A stretch of DNA of 37,772 bases, taken from the NCBI RefSeq assembly GCF_014306095.1, contig NZ_JACRWC010000108.1:1-37772 (forward strand). The letters run 5' to 3'. Positions 4,636 to 22,475 of the stretch are shown here, piece by piece (positions within the stretch are counted from its first letter, which is position 1; each line of letters begins with the position of its first letter). The translations under genes and the position numbers were made by a program. The DNA comes from Lentihominibacter faecis. GTDB taxonomy: Bacteria; Bacillota; Clostridia; Peptostreptococcales; Anaerovoracaceae. The notes beneath the pieces are model-generated. The model saw only the letters and a list, made by a program, of their open reading frames with translations, searched no databases and had not been told where the DNA came from.

Positions 4636-6489
4636 ATGAGCATCGATACACAGCTGGAAAAAATGCTGCGAAAAGTAGAAAAGCCCGCACGGTACACAGG
4701 CGGAGAAGTCAACAGCGTGAAGAAGGATCCGGAGCAGGTAAGTGTACGTTTTGGATTCGCATTTCCAGACACCTACGAGATCGGCATGTCGTACATGGGC
4801 ATGCAGATTTTATACAATATATTGAACAGGAATGAAAAAATCTACTGTGAGAGAATTTTTGCCCCGGCAGAGGATATGGAAGCGCTGATGCGTGAAGAAG
4901 GCAGGAAGCTGTTTACTCTGGAAACTTTCACGCCGGTAGACGAGCTGGACATAGTGGGGTTTACCCTGCAGTACGAGCTGTCATACACAAATGTGCTGAA
5001 TATTTTGGACCTGTCAGGCATGCCGCTGCATAGTGCAGATCGTGGAGAAGAATTTCCGGTCATTGTGGCAGGAGGTCCGTGCGCATATAATCCGGAGCCG
5101 CTGGCGGATTTCATCGATCTTTTTATGATCGGAGATGGCGAAGAATTATTAGAACAGGTTTGCCTGCTGAAAATGGAATGTGATTCTAAAAAGGAGTTTC
5201 TGCAAAGGGCCTGCAAACTGCAGGGCGTCTATGTGCCGGCGTTTTATGAGCCGATATACAATGAGAACGGTACGATCAAAGAAATCAAAAAACTTTATGA
5301 AGAGGCTCCTGATCGCGTGAAGCGAGCTGTTGTAGAAGATCTGGACAAGGCGGAATTCCCTGTAAAGAACATCGTTCCCTTTATCGATACGGTTCACGAC
5401 CGTTGCGTGGTGGAAACCTTTCGTGGATGTACCCGCGGATGCCGGTTTTGCCAGGCAGGGATGATCTACAGACCGGTACGGGAGCGTAAAAAAGAGACGA
5501 TCGAAAATCTTGCAAAGGAGCAGCTGGCCAATACGGGACACGAGGAACTATCACTGCTGTCTCTTTCTACCAGCGACTACTCTCAGTTTGAGCCTCTGGC
5601 AACAGATCTGATGAAAATGTGCGGCGAAAACAATGTTTCCCTTTCATTGCCTTCACTTCGCCTGGATTCTTTTTCCTTCCAGGTCCTTCAGGAGATCCAG
5701 AAGTATCGGAAGTCCGGACTGACATTTGCTCCGGAAGCCGGAAGTCAGAGACTTCGTGATGTGATAAATAAAAACATTACTGAAGAAAATATTTTCAGTG
5801 CCGTAGAACAGGCCATCGAGCTGGGATGGGAGCACATCAAGTTTTATTTCATGGACGGGCTTCCAGGAGAAACGTATGAAGACCTGGATGGGATCGGCAA
5901 GATCGCTTCAGACATCATGGATCTGAATTTTAAGCTGAAAGGCAGAAGAGGGGGCAGGTTCCGTGTGACAGTCAGTGTCTCCAATTTTGTACCAAAAGCA
6001 CACACGCCGTTTCAGTGGGCAGCACAAGACCGGCCGGAAGAGTTTCGCGCCAAGCATGATCATCTGGCGAAGCAACTTCATATCAAGGGTGTCACGTTCA
6101 ATTATCATGAAACGAAGACCAGTAATCTGGAAGCTATCTTTGCGAGGGGAGACAGGAAGGTTTGCAGGCTGCTGGAGCACGCTTATCATCTAGGCTGTAA
6201 GTTTGATGGATGGACAGAGTATTTCAAGCCGCAGCTGTGGGAACAGGCCTTTGCGGAAACGGGAACAGATCTGGAGTTTTACGCTTACAGAGAACGTGAT
6301 TACGAGGAGATCCTCCCATGGGATATCATAGATCCTCTTATCAGCCGAGAGTTTCTGATACGTGAGAATGAGAAGGCAAAGGCAGCGCAGGTAACGCCGG
6401 ACTGCCGCAGGGGATGTGCCGGATGCGGTATCAATCGATATGCTACCTGCTTTAAAAATGCAAAGTTTGAGGGGGTAGAACATGACTAG
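4636..6489 (+). CDS. B12-binding/radical SAM protein, TIGR03960 family
   Basis: The 617-aa protein has an N-terminal B12-binding-like region (about residues 30-190, with TYEIGMSYMGMQILYN and GGPCAYNPEPLADFID). A radical-SAM core follows, with the [4Fe-4S] motif C-x3-C-x2-C in FRGCTRGCRFCQAG. A C-terminal Cys-rich stretch (DCRRGCAGCGIN) could hold a second cluster. The family is conserved next to DUF2344 proteins, often with RNase G and rplU. Its substrate is not established to my knowledge, though a tRNA/rRNA modification role has been suspected. The stop overlaps the start of the next gene by 8 bp, indicating translational coupling. No rng (RNase G) gene is seen here. Confidence 0.92.
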   Translation: MSIDTQLEKMLRKVEKPARYTGGEVNSVKKDPEQVSVRFGFAFPDTYEIGMSYMGMQILYNILNRNEKIYCERIFAPAEDMEALMREEGRKLFTLETFTPVDELDIVGFTLQYELSYTNVLNILDLSGMPLHSADRGEEFPVIVAGGPCAYNPEPLADFIDLFMIGDGEELLEQVCLLKMECDSKKEFLQRACKLQGVYVPAFYEPIYNENGTIKEIKKLYEEAPDRVKRAVVEDLDKAEFPVKNIVPFIDTVHDRCVVETFRGCTRGCRFCQAGMIYRPVRERKKETIENLAKEQLANTGHEELSLLSLSTSDYSQFEPLATDLMKMCGENNVSLSLPSLRLDSFSFQVLQEIQKYRKSGLTFAPEAGSQRLRDVINKNITEENIFSAVEQAIELGWEHIKFYFMDGLPGETYEDLDGIGKIASDIMDLNFKLKGRRGGRFRVTVSVSNFVPKAHTPFQWAAQDRPEEFRAKHDHLAKQLHIKGVTFNYHETKTSNLEAIFARGDRKVCRLLEHAYHLGCKFDGWTEYFKPQLWEQAFAETGTDLEFYAYRERDYEEILPWDIIDPLISREFLIRENEKAKAAQVTPDCRRGCAGCGINRYATCFKNAKFEGVEHD

Positions 6490-8398
6490 GTATATTATGC
6501 AGTTTTCAAAGACGGGGACGAGCTGTTATATCTCTCACCTTGATCTGGTGCGTGTATTTCACCGGGCATTTAAGCGGGCAGGTATTAAACTGGAATATTC
6601 TAAGGGATTCAATCCGCATCCTAAGATGGGATTCGCACAGCCTTTATCTCTGGGATATACGGGAATGCGGGAATATATTGAGTTTGAAACCAAGGAGGAG
6701 CATGCTCCCGAAGATCTGGGCGAGATGTTGAAAGCACAGATGCCGGACGGGATCGATATTCATCTGTGTCAGTTCCTGGAATATCCTAAAAAGACGCTGG
6801 CGTCGGTAACGGAAGCAGCTGTTTATACAGTGTCGATCCCTTTGAAAAAAAGCGTGCAGATGAAGGCGGATGCCTGTAAAGAGCTTTATCTGGGACAGGA
6901 TCAGATCATTGTCTTAAAGAAACAGAAGAAAAAGAAAGATCTGGTTGAGATAGACATCAAACCGAAGATACGTGAAATCGAATTTCTGCCGCTGTCAAAG
7001 AGTCTGCAGATCAAAATGAAAATCGATGCGGGAAGCAATTCCAATCTCAGTCCGGAGCAGGTGATCGATTCGGTGCTCCGGTGTTTTGCGATCGATACGG
7101 ATCGCAGTGAAATCAGTGTTACCAGACATTTGATCTTTTTTAGAGAAGCTGTTTCGCTGCCAGATGCAGCCGGTTGTGCTCCCGAGCTTGAAAGATGGGG
7201 AATGCAGGAGGAAGATAAGGCGGCATGGGACCAGATGGACAGGATCATGGAGAAAAGCGAAATATTGAAAAATATGCAAAAAGAACGGCTGAGCAAAGTG
7301 ATGATCCTGGTGATCGATGGCTGTGCTCCCGCTTATATCTCGCCGGAGCATGCTCCGCAGCTGCATAAACTGGCGAAGGAAACGGGATTTGCAAAGAAAG
7401 TACAATGTGCGATGCCATCGGTGACAAATGTCAATCATGCGTGTATTCTGTCTGGAAAGTGGCCCATGGATGCAGGCGTGATAGGGAATTACTATTATGA
7501 CCCGGAAACAGAAGAAGAAGGCTTTATTGAAGAACGGGGCTATATGAAAGCGGAGACGCTTTTGCAGTATTATAAAAAGCTGGATAAGAAAACCGCTTTG
7601 CTTACGGTAAAGGGAAAGGTCCTCGGCGTATATGGAGATGGTGCAGATATCGGGCTTAGTGCACAGGAACCCGATCCTGCTGTGCTGGAGCGATATGATT
7701 TGTCGCCGGCGCCAGCCATCAACAGCGTGGAAGCAACGGAATGGATCGTGCGAGCAGCTGCGGAATGTATTCGAAAAGATGACCCGGATCTGGTATACTG
7801 CACGACTAATGATTATGTATTTCATCATTTTGAACCAGGAACGCCGGAAGCATGTGCGCAGATCAAAGCGATCAATGACATCGTCAGTGAGATCGCAGAA
7901 CTGGATCCGGATCGTCAGATCTACATTACGGCAGATCATGGGATGAATCAGAAGCATACGATTGTGAATTTTTCGCAGATCGCAAAAAATGCCGGTTTTG
8001 ATGTATTCTGTCTGCCACCGTTAAAAGATCGTTACATTGAGAATCATATCTATCAGGAAGGCGGTCTGCTGTATGTATTTTTGAAAAATCCTGTACAGGC
8101 TACGGATTTCCGTCGCTTTGCAGAAGAGCATCCGCTGGTGGAACGTGTACTGGACAGTAAACAGGCCGCAGTGGAATATTATCTGCCACCGGACAAAATC
8201 GGCGATTTTGTATTGCTTGCAGGTGAGGATATCGCTTTTGGAGAAGTAGAAGGTGAGTCGATCCATACAGAAGATTCCAGAACCCATGGATCTTTGTATG
8301 AGAGGGAGATCCCGCTGATAGGCATCAATACACAGCCGAAAGGAGAACGCTTCCAATACCACAAGGATGTGGCCAGGTATCTGATGGGAATGTCGTAA
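6482..8398 (+). CDS. Fusion: DUF2344 (TIGR03936) domain + phosphonoacetate hydrolase-like alkaline-phosphatase-superfamily domain
   Basis: Residues ~1-225 are a DUF2344 domain (YISHLDLVRVFHRAFKRAG, SKGFNPHPKMGFAQPLSLG), the usual partner of the upstream TIGR03960 protein. After a linker (about 225-270) comes a full phosphodiesterase/PhnA-like domain. Its expected metal and nucleophile residues are all visible: D279 (VIDGC), T315 (MPSVTNVNH), D444 and H448 (NDYVFHH), D485-H486 (ADHGM) and H602 (SRTHGS). The block GVIGNYYYDPETEEE also recalls phosphonoacetate hydrolase. A normal DUF2344 protein is about 230 aa; this one is 638 aa in one open frame. An internal ATG at 7301 lacks a good ribosome-binding site. 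The substrate is unknown. A true fusion is the simplest reading; a lost stop between adjacent genes is the alternative. Confidence 0.85.
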   Translation: MTRYIMQFSKTGTSCYISHLDLVRVFHRAFKRAGIKLEYSKGFNPHPKMGFAQPLSLGYTGMREYIEFETKEEHAPEDLGEMLKAQMPDGIDIHLCQFLEYPKKTLASVTEAAVYTVSIPLKKSVQMKADACKELYLGQDQIIVLKKQKKKKDLVEIDIKPKIREIEFLPLSKSLQIKMKIDAGSNSNLSPEQVIDSVLRCFAIDTDRSEISVTRHLIFFREAVSLPDAAGCAPELERWGMQEEDKAAWDQMDRIMEKSEILKNMQKERLSKVMILVIDGCAPAYISPEHAPQLHKLAKETGFAKKVQCAMPSVTNVNHACILSGKWPMDAGVIGNYYYDPETEEEGFIEERGYMKAETLLQYYKKLDKKTALLTVKGKVLGVYGDGADIGLSAQEPDPAVLERYDLSPAPAINSVEATEWIVRAAAECIRKDDPDLVYCTTNDYVFHHFEPGTPEACAQIKAINDIVSEIAELDPDRQIYITADHGMNQKHTIVNFSQIAKNAGFDVFCLPPLKDRYIENHIYQEGGLLYVFLKNPVQATDFRRFAEEHPLVERVLDSKQAAVEYYLPPDKIGDFVLLAGEDIAFGEVEGESIHTEDSRTHGSLYEREIPLIGINTQPKGERFQYHKDVARYLMGMS

Positions 8399-8424: not shown

Positions 8425-8464
8425 AAACCGTATTTTCTGTAAAAAGAAGGTACGGTTTTTTATT
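8425..8464 (+). terminator. Probable terminator after the DUF2344 fusion gene
   Basis: AAACCGTA (8425-8432) pairs with TACGGTTT (8451-8458), with an 18-nt loop, and is followed by TTTTATTT. The loop is long but the U-rich tail is good. Confidence 0.65.
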
Positions 8465-8486
8465 TGCAGAAAATAACAGGGAAATA

Positions 8487-8515
8487 TTGACACGGCGCGA
8501 TGTTGTATGTAAAAT
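8487..8515 (+). promoter_or_regulatory. Sigma-A-type promoter of comEA
   Basis: A perfect -35 TTGACA (8487-8492) and a -10 TAAAAT (8510-8515) are separated by 17 bp. Transcription would start about 40 nt before the comEA ATG at 8562. This also shows that a longer frame starting at 8487 is not the gene start. Confidence 0.8.
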
Positions 8516-8561: not shown

Positions 8562-9215
8562 ATGAAAAAACTGATGGAGATCCTCGGCGACAAGAGGGAA
8601 CTCTGCCGGTTACTGAATGAGCACAAGGATATGCTGAAGAAGGTGGGGATCGTGGTTTTGGTGATCGTGCTGGGACTGGTAGTGTCTGCGGTGAAAAACG
8701 GTGGACAGGAAGAAGCCCAGGCACAGGAGACGACGGTGGCCGCAGAAGAAGAAACGGCTGAGGTGATCTATGTCGATGTGGGAGGTGAAGTGAATCAGCC
8801 TTCTGTAGTAGAACTGACGGATGGCAGTCGTGTAACGGATGCTATTGCTGCGGCAGGAGGGTTGACGGAGAAGGCGGATCTGACGGATATCAATCGTGCA
8901 GCTTTTGTCAGCGATGGAGAGAAAATTTTTATTCCTTCGCAGGAAGAATACGACTCCGATGGACTGCTTTCCGGTGACAGTGGAAACAGTGGTGGGAGTG
9001 GAGCTTCAGGAAGATCATCTGACGGCAAGATCAATATCAATACGGCGGATTCCACACAGCTGCAGGAACTGAACGGAGTAGGTCCGGCAACTGCAGAAAA
9101 GATCATTGATTACAGGAAACAGAACGGTAGATTTCAATCGATCGAGGATATCAAAAACGTTTCGGGAATAGGAGATAAAACATACGAAAAATTAAAGGAT
9201 CATATTAGAGTTTGA
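8562..9215 (+). CDS. comEA: ComEA-family competence/DNA-binding protein
   Basis: ComEA is the membrane-anchored DNA receptor of natural transformation. The 217-aa product has one N-terminal membrane helix (about residues 27-44, VGIVVLVIVLGLVVSAV), a charged linker and an SLBB-type domain (VIYVDVGGEVNQPSVVEL...RVTDAIAAAGGL). A Gly/Ser linker then leads to a C-terminal helix-hairpin-helix pair (ININTADSTQLQELNGVGPATAEKII and SGIGDKTYEKL). The start is set by the AAAGGGGGCG ribosome-binding site and by the promoter upstream. comEB and comEC are not adjacent. The gene stands alone between a strong promoter and the adhesin gene 27 bp downstream, which may be co-transcribed. Confidence 0.92.
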   Translation: MKKLMEILGDKRELCRLLNEHKDMLKKVGIVVLVIVLGLVVSAVKNGGQEEAQAQETTVAAEEETAEVIYVDVGGEVNQPSVVELTDGSRVTDAIAAAGGLTEKADLTDINRAAFVSDGEKIFIPSQEEYDSDGLLSGDSGNSGGSGASGRSSDGKININTADSTQLQELNGVGPATAEKIIDYRKQNGRFQSIEDIKNVSGIGDKTYEKLKDHIRV

Positions 9216-9242: not shown

Positions 9243-11090
9243 ATGGTTAAAAAAAGGGGGATACTACTACGTATTATTACGGGTACTGTGATGCTGATTC
9301 TGGTAGTTGTAAGTGCACTGGTGCAGACAGAACCGGCAGCAGCGGCAGGCTCCGGAATCTCAAAGGTGTCGTTTGATGGCTATTTAAAAGGCGTAGAATA
9401 CAAAGTGTATACCGTGGAGAAAAACGGCAGTGTGCTGTTCTATAATCAGGACGGGAGCACATATGTGCAGCAGGTGACTGGACTGCAGCCTTCCAAGCGG
9501 CGGCATATGATCTTGACGGATGTGTCCAGCGGTGAAAAGCGTGAAGGCTACTGTATTGAATTCGATGCAGATTTTCGTGTACAGACATCCTATGAAAGCA
9601 CAGGATATCTGACGGATAAAGCGTATTTCAGTCACATGCCGGAGGATGTGAAAAAGTTAATGCTGGCAGTAACGTATTATGGGAAAAACGGAGATAATCC
9701 ACTGCCGGTTTCCGGAGTCAGCGGTGAGGACTATTATTATGCAACACAGGTCATGATCTGGGAGGTACAGCAGCAGCTTCGCGTATTTGAACGGGACAGA
9801 AATGGCAGGATCACGGGAACGAAGAGAGTGGCAGCTCATGGGATGCAGGCTGACTATTTTTACCGGTCGCTGAAAGGACGTGCAGCAGAAAAATGTTATG
9901 ATTTTCTGGCAGAAAATATAGGAAAGCACTTTGTGACACCTGAGTTTGTCGGAGAGACGGCGGAGAAAGCAGCACCGGTGCTGATGAAATACGACATGGA
10001 AACAAAATCGTGGAAAGCCAATGCGGATGAAGGAAACTGCAGCTTTGATATGAAATGGGCAGTAGAGGACATCCAGTATTCAAAGGAGGGCTCGGCACAT
10101 AATTTCACAACATCCAAGGCTATCGATGGAGAAAAAATCGTAAAAGTAAAGCGAAAGACAGAGGAAGGATCATCAGCAGAAAATCTGTTGATCTGGAACC
10201 ATGAGGGCAGCAAACGGATGCAGGTGTTATCTACCGGATCGGCTTCCCCTCCGGAGTTCTTCATGCGATTAAAAACGGATGTGCCGGCAGAAGTGACTGT
10301 GGAAAAAAAGGATGCGGAAACCGGAAAATCCATTCCGGCGGAGCAGACGCAGTATAAGGTGAAGAGTCTGGATCTGAATCGTTATGTGTCAGACGGAATG
10401 AAAAAGAAAGACGGGGAAGTGTATGAAACAGATCGAGACGGCAGGATCGTGATCCCGGTAAAACTGCAGCAGGGCACATACCAGCTGGAAGAGATCAAAG
10501 CCCCTAAAGGCTATGTTGTAGCAAAGGAACCGCAGCAGTTTAAAGTAGATGGCAAGACCGCTTCAATAACGTTAGAACAAAAGGATATGCCGCAGAAAGG
10601 AAAAATCACCATTAAGAAAATCGGTGAATACAAGCACCATGACAATTGGGCAGATATTAGAGAGAAGGTCATGGGCGGTATTGATTTTGATATCATCGCT
10701 TTGGCGGATATCATTACGCCGGATGGAACCGTTCGGGCGGAAAAAGGTCAGGTCGTCGATACTGTGCGAACAGATTTTAATGGGAATGTCAGCAGCAAAC
10801 CATTGTATTTAGGTCCGTATAATGTGGTAGAAAAGGATGCCCCGGTAGAATACCGTATCGCAGAACCGATCAATGTGGCTTTGGTTTATGGTGATCAGAA
10901 CGTGGATATCGTGGAGAAGCAGATCAATATATTGAATCGTCTGAAGAGAAATATCGACAGCTTGGGAGAGACACCAAAGACAGGGGATGAAAGTGGGGTC
11001 AATACGATCCTTCTGGTAATGCTTCTTTCGCTTACGGTGATGGCTGTGACAGCGGTTTTATTTAGGCTGAGGAAAGACGAGCAGAAGTAG
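9243..11090 (+). CDS. Thioester (TQXA)-domain surface adhesin with SpaA-like domains and sortase signal
   Basis: A signal peptide (residues ~1-36, cut near AAAAG) is followed by a thioester domain: Cys104 in EGYCIEFD and Gln169 in YYYATQVMIWEVQ are placed as in TQXA domains, which form an internal Cys-Gln thioester able to bind host surfaces covalently. Two SpaA/Cna-B-like modules follow (about 300-440 and 445-565). The first ends TYQLEEIKAPKGY, carrying the Glu typical of isopeptide-forming domains. The C-terminus has a sorting signal (TPKTGD near residue 577), a hydrophobic helix and a positive tail. The sorting motif is a TPKTG variant of LPXTG. No sortase or pilin genes are in the window. 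The function is inferred from domain type. Confidence 0.88.
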   Translation: MVKKRGILLRIITGTVMLILVVVSALVQTEPAAAAGSGISKVSFDGYLKGVEYKVYTVEKNGSVLFYNQDGSTYVQQVTGLQPSKRRHMILTDVSSGEKREGYCIEFDADFRVQTSYESTGYLTDKAYFSHMPEDVKKLMLAVTYYGKNGDNPLPVSGVSGEDYYYATQVMIWEVQQQLRVFERDRNGRITGTKRVAAHGMQADYFYRSLKGRAAEKCYDFLAENIGKHFVTPEFVGETAEKAAPVLMKYDMETKSWKANADEGNCSFDMKWAVEDIQYSKEGSAHNFTTSKAIDGEKIVKVKRKTEEGSSAENLLIWNHEGSKRMQVLSTGSASPPEFFMRLKTDVPAEVTVEKKDAETGKSIPAEQTQYKVKSLDLNRYVSDGMKKKDGEVYETDRDGRIVIPVKLQQGTYQLEEIKAPKGYVVAKEPQQFKVDGKTASITLEQKDMPQKGKITIKKIGEYKHHDNWADIREKVMGGIDFDIIALADIITPDGTVRAEKGQVVDTVRTDFNGNVSSKPLYLGPYNVVEKDAPVEYRIAEPINVALVYGDQNVDIVEKQINILNRLKRNIDSLGETPKTGDESGVNTILLVMLLSLTVMAVTAVLFRLRKDEQK

Positions 11091-21350: not shown

Positions 21351-22475
21351 ATGAAAACATTCAGAGTAGTACCGCAGATCAGTTGTTGTGATACTTTCCG
21401 TGAATTTGCAGATCATTTCCAGGTGGGAAATGGTGATATTCTGGTGACAAACCGGAGAAGATATGAGAAGTACGTGAAGCCGGCCGGAGTTGCGATCCCG
21501 GTATTGTTTCGTGAAGACTACGGCAAGGGTGAGCCGACCGATGAGATGATCGATGCCATGGGAAGGGATATGGAGCAGTATGATGCCAAACGGATCATTG
21601 CCTTTGGCGGCGGCACAATCGTGGATATGTGCAAAGTGCTCGCGCTGGATCTCCCGGAGCACTCGCAGATGTTGTTTACAGGAGATGCGGCTCCAAAGAA
21701 AATACGGGAATTGATCATTATTCCGACTACGTGCGGTACGGGATCTGAAGTTACTAACGTGACTATTTCCGAGCTGAAATCTCTGCACGTAAAAAAAGGA
21801 CTGGCTGCGGAGGAAACTTATGCGGATCATGCAGTATTGATCCCGGAATCCTTGCAGGATCTGCCGGATTACGTATTTGCGACAAGTTCCATCGATGCGC
21901 TGATCCATTCTCTGGAAAGTTTTCTTTCTCCGAAAGCGTCGTCCTTTAGTGAGATGTATTCCTTAAAGGCGATGGAGATCATTATGGGCGGATATAAAAC
22001 GATCCTGGAACGAGGCGGAAACAGTGCTGAAAACCGGGAAGATCTGTTGCAGGAGTTCGGTCTGGCTGCAACATATGCAGGGATCGCTTTTGGTAATGCA
22101 GGATGTGGTGCGGTACACGCACTGTCCTATTCCATCGGAGCGGCGTTCCATGTTCCTCACGGAGAAGCTAATTATCAGTTTTTCACGGAAGTATTCAAGA
22201 CGTACATGAAGAGAGAACCAGAAGGAAGGATCGATCGGATCAATAGCGTGATGGCTGATATTTTGGGCTGTGAAAAAGAGAACGTTTATGAGGAGATCGA
22301 GAAGGTCCTGGATCAGCTGATCCCTCGTAAACCGCTGAGGGAATACGGCATGACGGAGGAGCAGATCGACACATTTACGGATTCTACACTGGAAAATCAG
22401 CAGCGTTTGCTGGCTAATAATTATGTTTCGCTGGATCGGAGCGAGATCCATGAAATATTTGCGAAGCTGCGGTAA
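21351..22475 (+). CDS. Iron-containing alcohol dehydrogenase, 4-hydroxybutyrate dehydrogenase-like
   Basis: The 374-aa product is a group III (iron-dependent) alcohol dehydrogenase. The NAD-binding motif is IIAFGGGTIVDMCKVLAL, followed by IPTTCGTGSEVTNV. The metal ligands are Asp and His in SSIDALIHSLESFLS plus the His pair in AVHALSYSIGAAFHVPHGEAN. The N-terminus MKTFRVVPQISCCDTFREF and the length resemble clostridial 4-hydroxybutyrate dehydrogenase (4HbD), which reduces succinate semialdehyde in succinate or 4-aminobutyrate fermentation. No partner genes (abfD, cat1/cat2, sucD) are in the window, so the substrate assignment is tentative. The ribosome-binding site is TAGGAGCAG. Confidence 0.85.
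   Translation: MKTFRVVPQISCCDTFREFADHFQVGNGDILVTNRRRYEKYVKPAGVAIPVLFREDYGKGEPTDEMIDAMGRDMEQYDAKRIIAFGGGTIVDMCKVLALDLPEHSQMLFTGDAAPKKIRELIIIPTTCGTGSEVTNVTISELKSLHVKKGLAAEETYADHAVLIPESLQDLPDYVFATSSIDALIHSLESFLSPKASSFSEMYSLKAMEIIMGGYKTILERGGNSAENREDLLQEFGLAATYAGIAFGNAGCGAVHALSYSIGAAFHVPHGEANYQFFTEVFKTYMKREPEGRIDRINSVMADILGCEKENVYEEIEKVLDQLIPRKPLREYGMTEEQIDTFTDSTLENQQRLLANNYVSLDRSEIHEIFAKLR

Follow-up and report, generated by a model that had tools for sequence, protein, structure and literature searches.

The bacterium Lentihominibacter faecis carries, in the 37,772-nucleotide stretch of contig NZ_JACRWC010000108.1 analyzed here (the window), a single gene in which a DUF2344 domain runs in frame into a domain resembling phosphonoacetate hydrolase (PhnA). 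The initial annotation suggested that this fusion could reveal the chemistry of the TIGR03960/DUF2344 pair, and the locus therefore raises the question of whether the join is real and whether it reflects a shared reaction or two neighboring genes that merged. The features concerned are as follows.

4636..6489 (+), gene for a TIGR03960 family B12-binding radical SAM protein, the usual DUF2344 partner (882.5 bits; cut-off, 462.3)
6482..8398 (+), fusion gene of 638 codons, with the same architecture in proteins P0002 to P0008
6482..7147 (+), DUF2344/TIGR03936 domain, residues 1 to 222, assigned by Pfam and NCBIfam, with a predicted TruA/PUS10-like pseudouridine-synthase fold
7148..7285 (+), linker, residues 223 to 268, with low-confidence helices and less conserved than both domains
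7286..8395 (+), PhnA-like (phosphonoacetate-hydrolase-type) domain, residues 269 to 638, assigned by Pfam, NCBIfam, and structure alignments

The frame at 6482..8398 is free of stops over all 638 residues, as originally described, and its start is overlapped for 8 bases by the 3′ end of the TIGR03960 gene. Pfam placed DUF2344 (PF10105) at residues 3 to 191 (172.8 bits, above the cut-off of 23.8) and the type I phosphodiesterase/nucleotide pyrophosphatase family (PF01663) at residues 273 to 603 (107.3 bits, above the cut-off of 23), so that both domains of the annotated fusion were verified. Among NCBIfam models, TIGR03936 scored 188.2 bits (cut-off, 71.9), while TIGR02335, phosphonoacetate hydrolase, scored 159.2 bits over residues 273 to 613, below its equivalog cut-off of 407.55. 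The N-terminal domain thus exceeds both curated cut-offs for TIGR03936/DUF2344 proteins and, lying directly after and overlapping TIGR03960, differs from separate members in being followed, within one polypeptide, by a linker and a second enzyme. Among the matches listed, separately encoded DUF2344 proteins have a projected end at residue 222 (median, n = 116) and separate PhnA proteins a projected start at residue 270 (median, n = 113), so that the fused chain gains a linker of about 46 residues. The predicted model of the whole protein (mean pLDDT, 86.3; pTM, 0.61) consists of two mostly confident domains joined by a linker that is weak at residues 240 to 270. Mean pairwise identity, computed on seven of the eight fused sequences (P0002, near-identical to the window, was omitted), is 64% in the linker versus 84% in DUF2344 and 85% in the PhnA part. 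An internal start for the PhnA domain was considered and rejected: the codon at residue 270, where separate genes begin, is CTG in the window, and the in-frame ATGs at residues 252, 256, and 265 lack a good ribosome-binding site as judged by eye.

The fusion is confirmed and is not explained by chance or by one assembly error. A protein search scored 7990 candidates and gave 261 matches; among the best 120 of these, at least seven proteins besides the window (P0002 to P0008) are full-length fusions with 76 to 99% identity over the whole query, and the remaining 113 cover 54 to 58% of the query, corresponding to the PhnA part. P0002 belongs to a cluster of 1192 members, and the largest contig among the seven, at 229 kb, carries P0003. 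The linker frame can nevertheless differ among near-identical sequences, which would be expected if the window were a read-through, an assembly error of two genes, or a local loss of a stop. Two database proteins, P0122 (279 amino acids [aa]; one member) and P0123 (244 aa; a cluster of 79 members, one contig), have a DUF2344 domain 99% identical to that of the window followed by another frame at or near the linker, so that a form whose frame is broken between DUF2344 and PhnA appears to exist among database sequences. Because further fused clusters exist, an artefact is rejected as a general explanation and is exceedingly improbable for the window. The fusion was absent from the genomes scanned, comprising 18 relatives from a GTDB species scan, 297 genomes of the order, and two overlapping sets of 119 and 349 genomes of the family. 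A separate DUF2344 protein search (885 matches, best 120 considered) had length limits that exclude fused proteins.

The C-terminal half is supported as an intact, conserved member of the alkaline-phosphatase superfamily, of the phosphonoacetate-hydrolase type, in agreement with the initial annotation. All seven residues named there as expected metal ligands (D279, T315, D444, H448, D485, H486, and H602) are invariant in 121 of 121 PhnA-domain rows (8 fused and 113 separate, among the matches listed), and the two-metal ligands, the Thr nucleophile, and two lysines, likewise invariant in all 121, align to Protein Data Bank (PDB) entries 1ei6 and 3szy. These two phosphonoacetate hydrolases are also the nearest solved structures by sequence (E values of 5e-40 and 2e-37), followed by ENPP6 at 1e-4, and the domain fold is closer to PhnA than to other superfamily members. 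In comparison with PhnA itself (1ei6, 3szy, and 3t02), however, the domain is only 27 to 29% identical in structural alignment, is fused to DUF2344, has no PhnY met beside it, and scores too low against TIGR02335 for the NCBI rule to call it a phosphonoacetate hydrolase. This shortfall, together with the breadth of PF01663, would fit a phosphodiesterase or pyrophosphatase of another specificity (nucleotide type, ENPP-like) in place of a C-P hydrolase, a reading that we consider unlikely.

The predicted model of the DUF2344 domain (pLDDT, 94.5) matches structures with a TruA/PUS10-like pseudouridine-synthase fold. Since a profile comparison of DUF2344 with TruA across ten loci was not significant (probability, 1.3%), this fold assignment is a prediction drawn from the model and from the Pfam grouping quoted in PMC7955657; a sequence search against the PDB returned two matches only, neither credible (E values of 1.4 and 7.8). 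Although the predicted fold is shared with TruA/PUS10-type pseudouridine synthases, an acidic residue is present in none of 56 DUF2344 rows (alignment A3) at positions 39 to 58, the loop after the second strand, which was placed as the catalytic-Asp site by topology. In the same alignment, the SHLD and GFNPHP motifs are nearly invariant. The predicted fold fits the earlier hint that the substrate may involve RNA. DUF2344 might accordingly be imagined as an RNA binder of this fold, lacking the usual catalytic Asp and presenting RNA to TIGR03960, with the PhnA-type domain clearing a phosphonate or phospho by-product, but this combination seems to us very unlikely.

Downstream of the fusion, three further features were recognized.

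8425..8458 (+), hairpin with a trailing T run downstream of the fusion stop, a possible intrinsic terminator (folding, −20.5 kcal/mol; z, −4.26)
8487..8515 (+), promoter-like TTGACA-17-TAAAAT before comEA, with a similar sequence after the DUF2344 stop in relatives without phnA
8562..9215 (+), comEA-like gene, which follows DUF2344 in most relatives read (start at 8562 chosen by eye; earliest possible start, 8487)

None of 200 shuffles was as stable as the hairpin, whose positions were taken from the dot-bracket line and which was not among the calls of a consensus scan. In the relative G202, the gene order is RecA, L21, L27, Obg, M23, HD, TIGR03960, DUF2344, comEA, DeoD, GPR, SpoIIP, and LepA, identical to that of the window except that phnA and a gene like the one at 9243-11090 are missing; the G202 stretch also has one small gene, mntR by eye. 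In the window, the gene at 9243-11090 lies between comEA and mntR and encodes a 615-aa, weakly pilin-like protein (best NCBIfam score, 34.5 bits; cut-off, 95), with homologues near the same place in G299 and G463 and none seen in G202. Across 24 other genomes with 32 DUF2344 loci, no PhnA match was found downstream of DUF2344 in the 1.1 to 8.3 kb of DNA examined per genome, and a comEA-like match lies 56 to 381 bases past DUF2344 in 19 of them. TIGR03960 is present in 45 of 49 genomes of the genus, leaving out G460 (46 with it), in which a weak match belongs to another radical SAM protein. One genome of the genus, G477, has two full-length TIGR03960 matches, on contigs 6 and 48.

PhnA is far rarer than its fusion partner, occurring in 10 of the 349 genomes from the family that includes G202 (E value of at most 1e-30) versus 99 of 119 sampled family genomes for DUF2344 (counted from a table). 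So rare a domain does not belong to the common TIGR03960/DUF2344 reaction, and the fusion is therefore best read as merged neighbors with independent activities. Were the PhnA-type domain instead to act on a phosphonate, pyrophosphate, or phosphoester of that reaction, so that the fusion marked its chemistry as first proposed, the retention of the fusion across its clade, the equal constraint on both domains, and the probable older adjacency of the two genes would be in keeping. In addition to the rarity of PhnA and its absence downstream of DUF2344 in 24 of 24 genomes, such coupling is opposed by the short form with a linker frameshift (P0123) and by the separate PhnA genes, some of which sit with phosphonate genes and others in unrelated places. 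We regard functional coupling as quite improbable, and the earlier interpretation as a whole is partly supported.

The company of separate PhnA genes is varied. In G299, phnA lies away from DUF2344, at a contig end before genes that by eye resemble fatty-acid synthesis. At L012 (3992-8788), phosphonopyruvate decarboxylase, PhnA-like, HD-domain, and acyltransferase genes stand in a row, possibly a phosphonate-making cluster. A cluster recurring in the family (L091 to L093, in G463, G432, and G286) comprises MFS, hydantoinase/oxoprolinase-like (~650 aa; assigned by Pfam on L091), PhnX-like, MFS, and PhnW genes; only its MFS-PhnW end is visible at L094 (G299), and PhnA lies within a similar cluster at L066 and L067. 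The PhnX-like proteins fall under the TIGR01422 cut-off, and the copies in G463, G432, and G286 are 86 to 88% identical to that of G338. Counted against a phosphonate substrate are the TIGR02335 score (159 of 407 bits), the lack, in a scan of 28 window proteins, of any PhnW, PhnX, or PhnY above its cut-off, and the occurrence of PhnW over cut-off in 5 of 15 PhnA-bearing genomes versus 1 of 15 (P = 0.17). At the loci read, no PhnY was noticed beside PhnA; in two orders of Alphaproteobacteria, by contrast, phnY was clustered with phnA in 121 of 145 cases (PMC12366243). An iron-containing alcohol dehydrogenase at 21351-22475 of the window weakly matches the phosphonate-linked TIGR03405 (120 bits; cut-off, 423.7), one among several like matches and probably unspecific.

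Comparison with relatives suggests how the two genes came together. In most relatives compared (not in L040), the DUF2344 stop is followed by the comEA promoter-like sequence, which in the window comes after the hairpin behind the PhnA part; the extra DNA thus sits downstream of the DUF2344 stop and upstream of the comEA promoter. At least four pairs of separate PhnA and DUF2344 proteins have a longest contig of identical size (3084, 13273, 14074, and 16980). Three such pairs were seen at ≥10 kb versus about 0.04 expected (Poisson, 2e-5 with 0.05), whereas the 3084 pair, taken by itself, may be coincidental (about 0.4 expected at ≥2.5 kb). P0130 shares its contig size (64137 bases) and an identical protein with G202 contig 41, showing that size can identify a contig. 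Phylogenetic analysis of PhnA placed three of the four paired rows (from the pairs P0009/P0157, P0012/P0129, and P0013/P0234) inside a 15-row clade with the fused rows (SH-aLRT, 98; chance, 0.0006), with P0009 sister to the fused rows (86). In the DUF2344 tree, P0129 joins the fused rows (90/74), while P0157 and P0234 branch from the same unresolved fork as that group, so that the sister rows are only weakly placed. The fourth pair (P0092/P0134) was placed elsewhere in both trees.

From matching contig sizes and trees, sister lineages probably have separate, neighboring DUF2344 and phnA genes. The refuting case named in the initial annotation, relatives with two separate genes, is thus borne out in part: in 24 of 24 other genomes read, DUF2344 has no phnA downstream, and separate adjacent genes are probable in the sister lineages. 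Separate neighboring genes appear to be the ancestral state; a local stop loss does not fit, because eight fused rows at 76 to 99% identity share the fusion. Direct insertion into DUF2344 as the sole step was set aside, since the same contig sizes and trees favor neighboring genes first. Base composition gave no sign of recent foreign origin (G+C content of 47.6% in the PhnA part, 44.6% in DUF2344, and 48.2% in TIGR03960). A direct repeat of 14 of 16 bases joins 7253-7268 in the linker and 8475-8490 at the comEA promoter; as a flank of an insert it was discounted, such a match being likely by chance in 1.8 kb.

The explanation that we favor, and consider reasonably probable, is a two-domain protein formed from merged neighboring genes, with DUF2344 serving TIGR03960 and the PhnA-type domain acting independently on a phosphonate. 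A phnA-type gene would have arrived between DUF2344 and comEA in the rplU-rpmA-obg-TIGR03960-DUF2344 string, as the difference from relatives suggests, and the two would have persisted as separate neighbors in sister lineages. In one clade, now represented by eight rows, the DUF2344 stop and the phnA start would then have been lost, giving rise to a flexible linker. The N-terminal part most likely remains an RNA-type binding partner of TIGR03960. For the C-terminal domain, the most likely activity is two-metal hydrolysis of phosphonoacetate or a closely related phosphonate, in which T315 would be the nucleophile and K377 and K379 would stabilize the leaving group. Most likely neither activity depends on the other, and the fusion may mainly tie phnA expression to a housekeeping gene string.

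No report of a DUF2344-PhnA architecture and no mention of TIGR03960/TIGR03936 was found in the literature searched, including passages of PMC12506659. The join is genuine and has been retained, but its most likely origin is the merging of neighboring genes, and it says little yet about the role of DUF2344. Shared chemistry should not be deduced from the fusion by itself, considering that PhnA is rare and, in the other genomes read, is located elsewhere. It nevertheless provides a natural construct holding both enzymes, and DUF2344, as a protein with a predicted pseudouridine-synthase fold, would make an RNA-binding test of the TIGR03960/DUF2344 pair direct.
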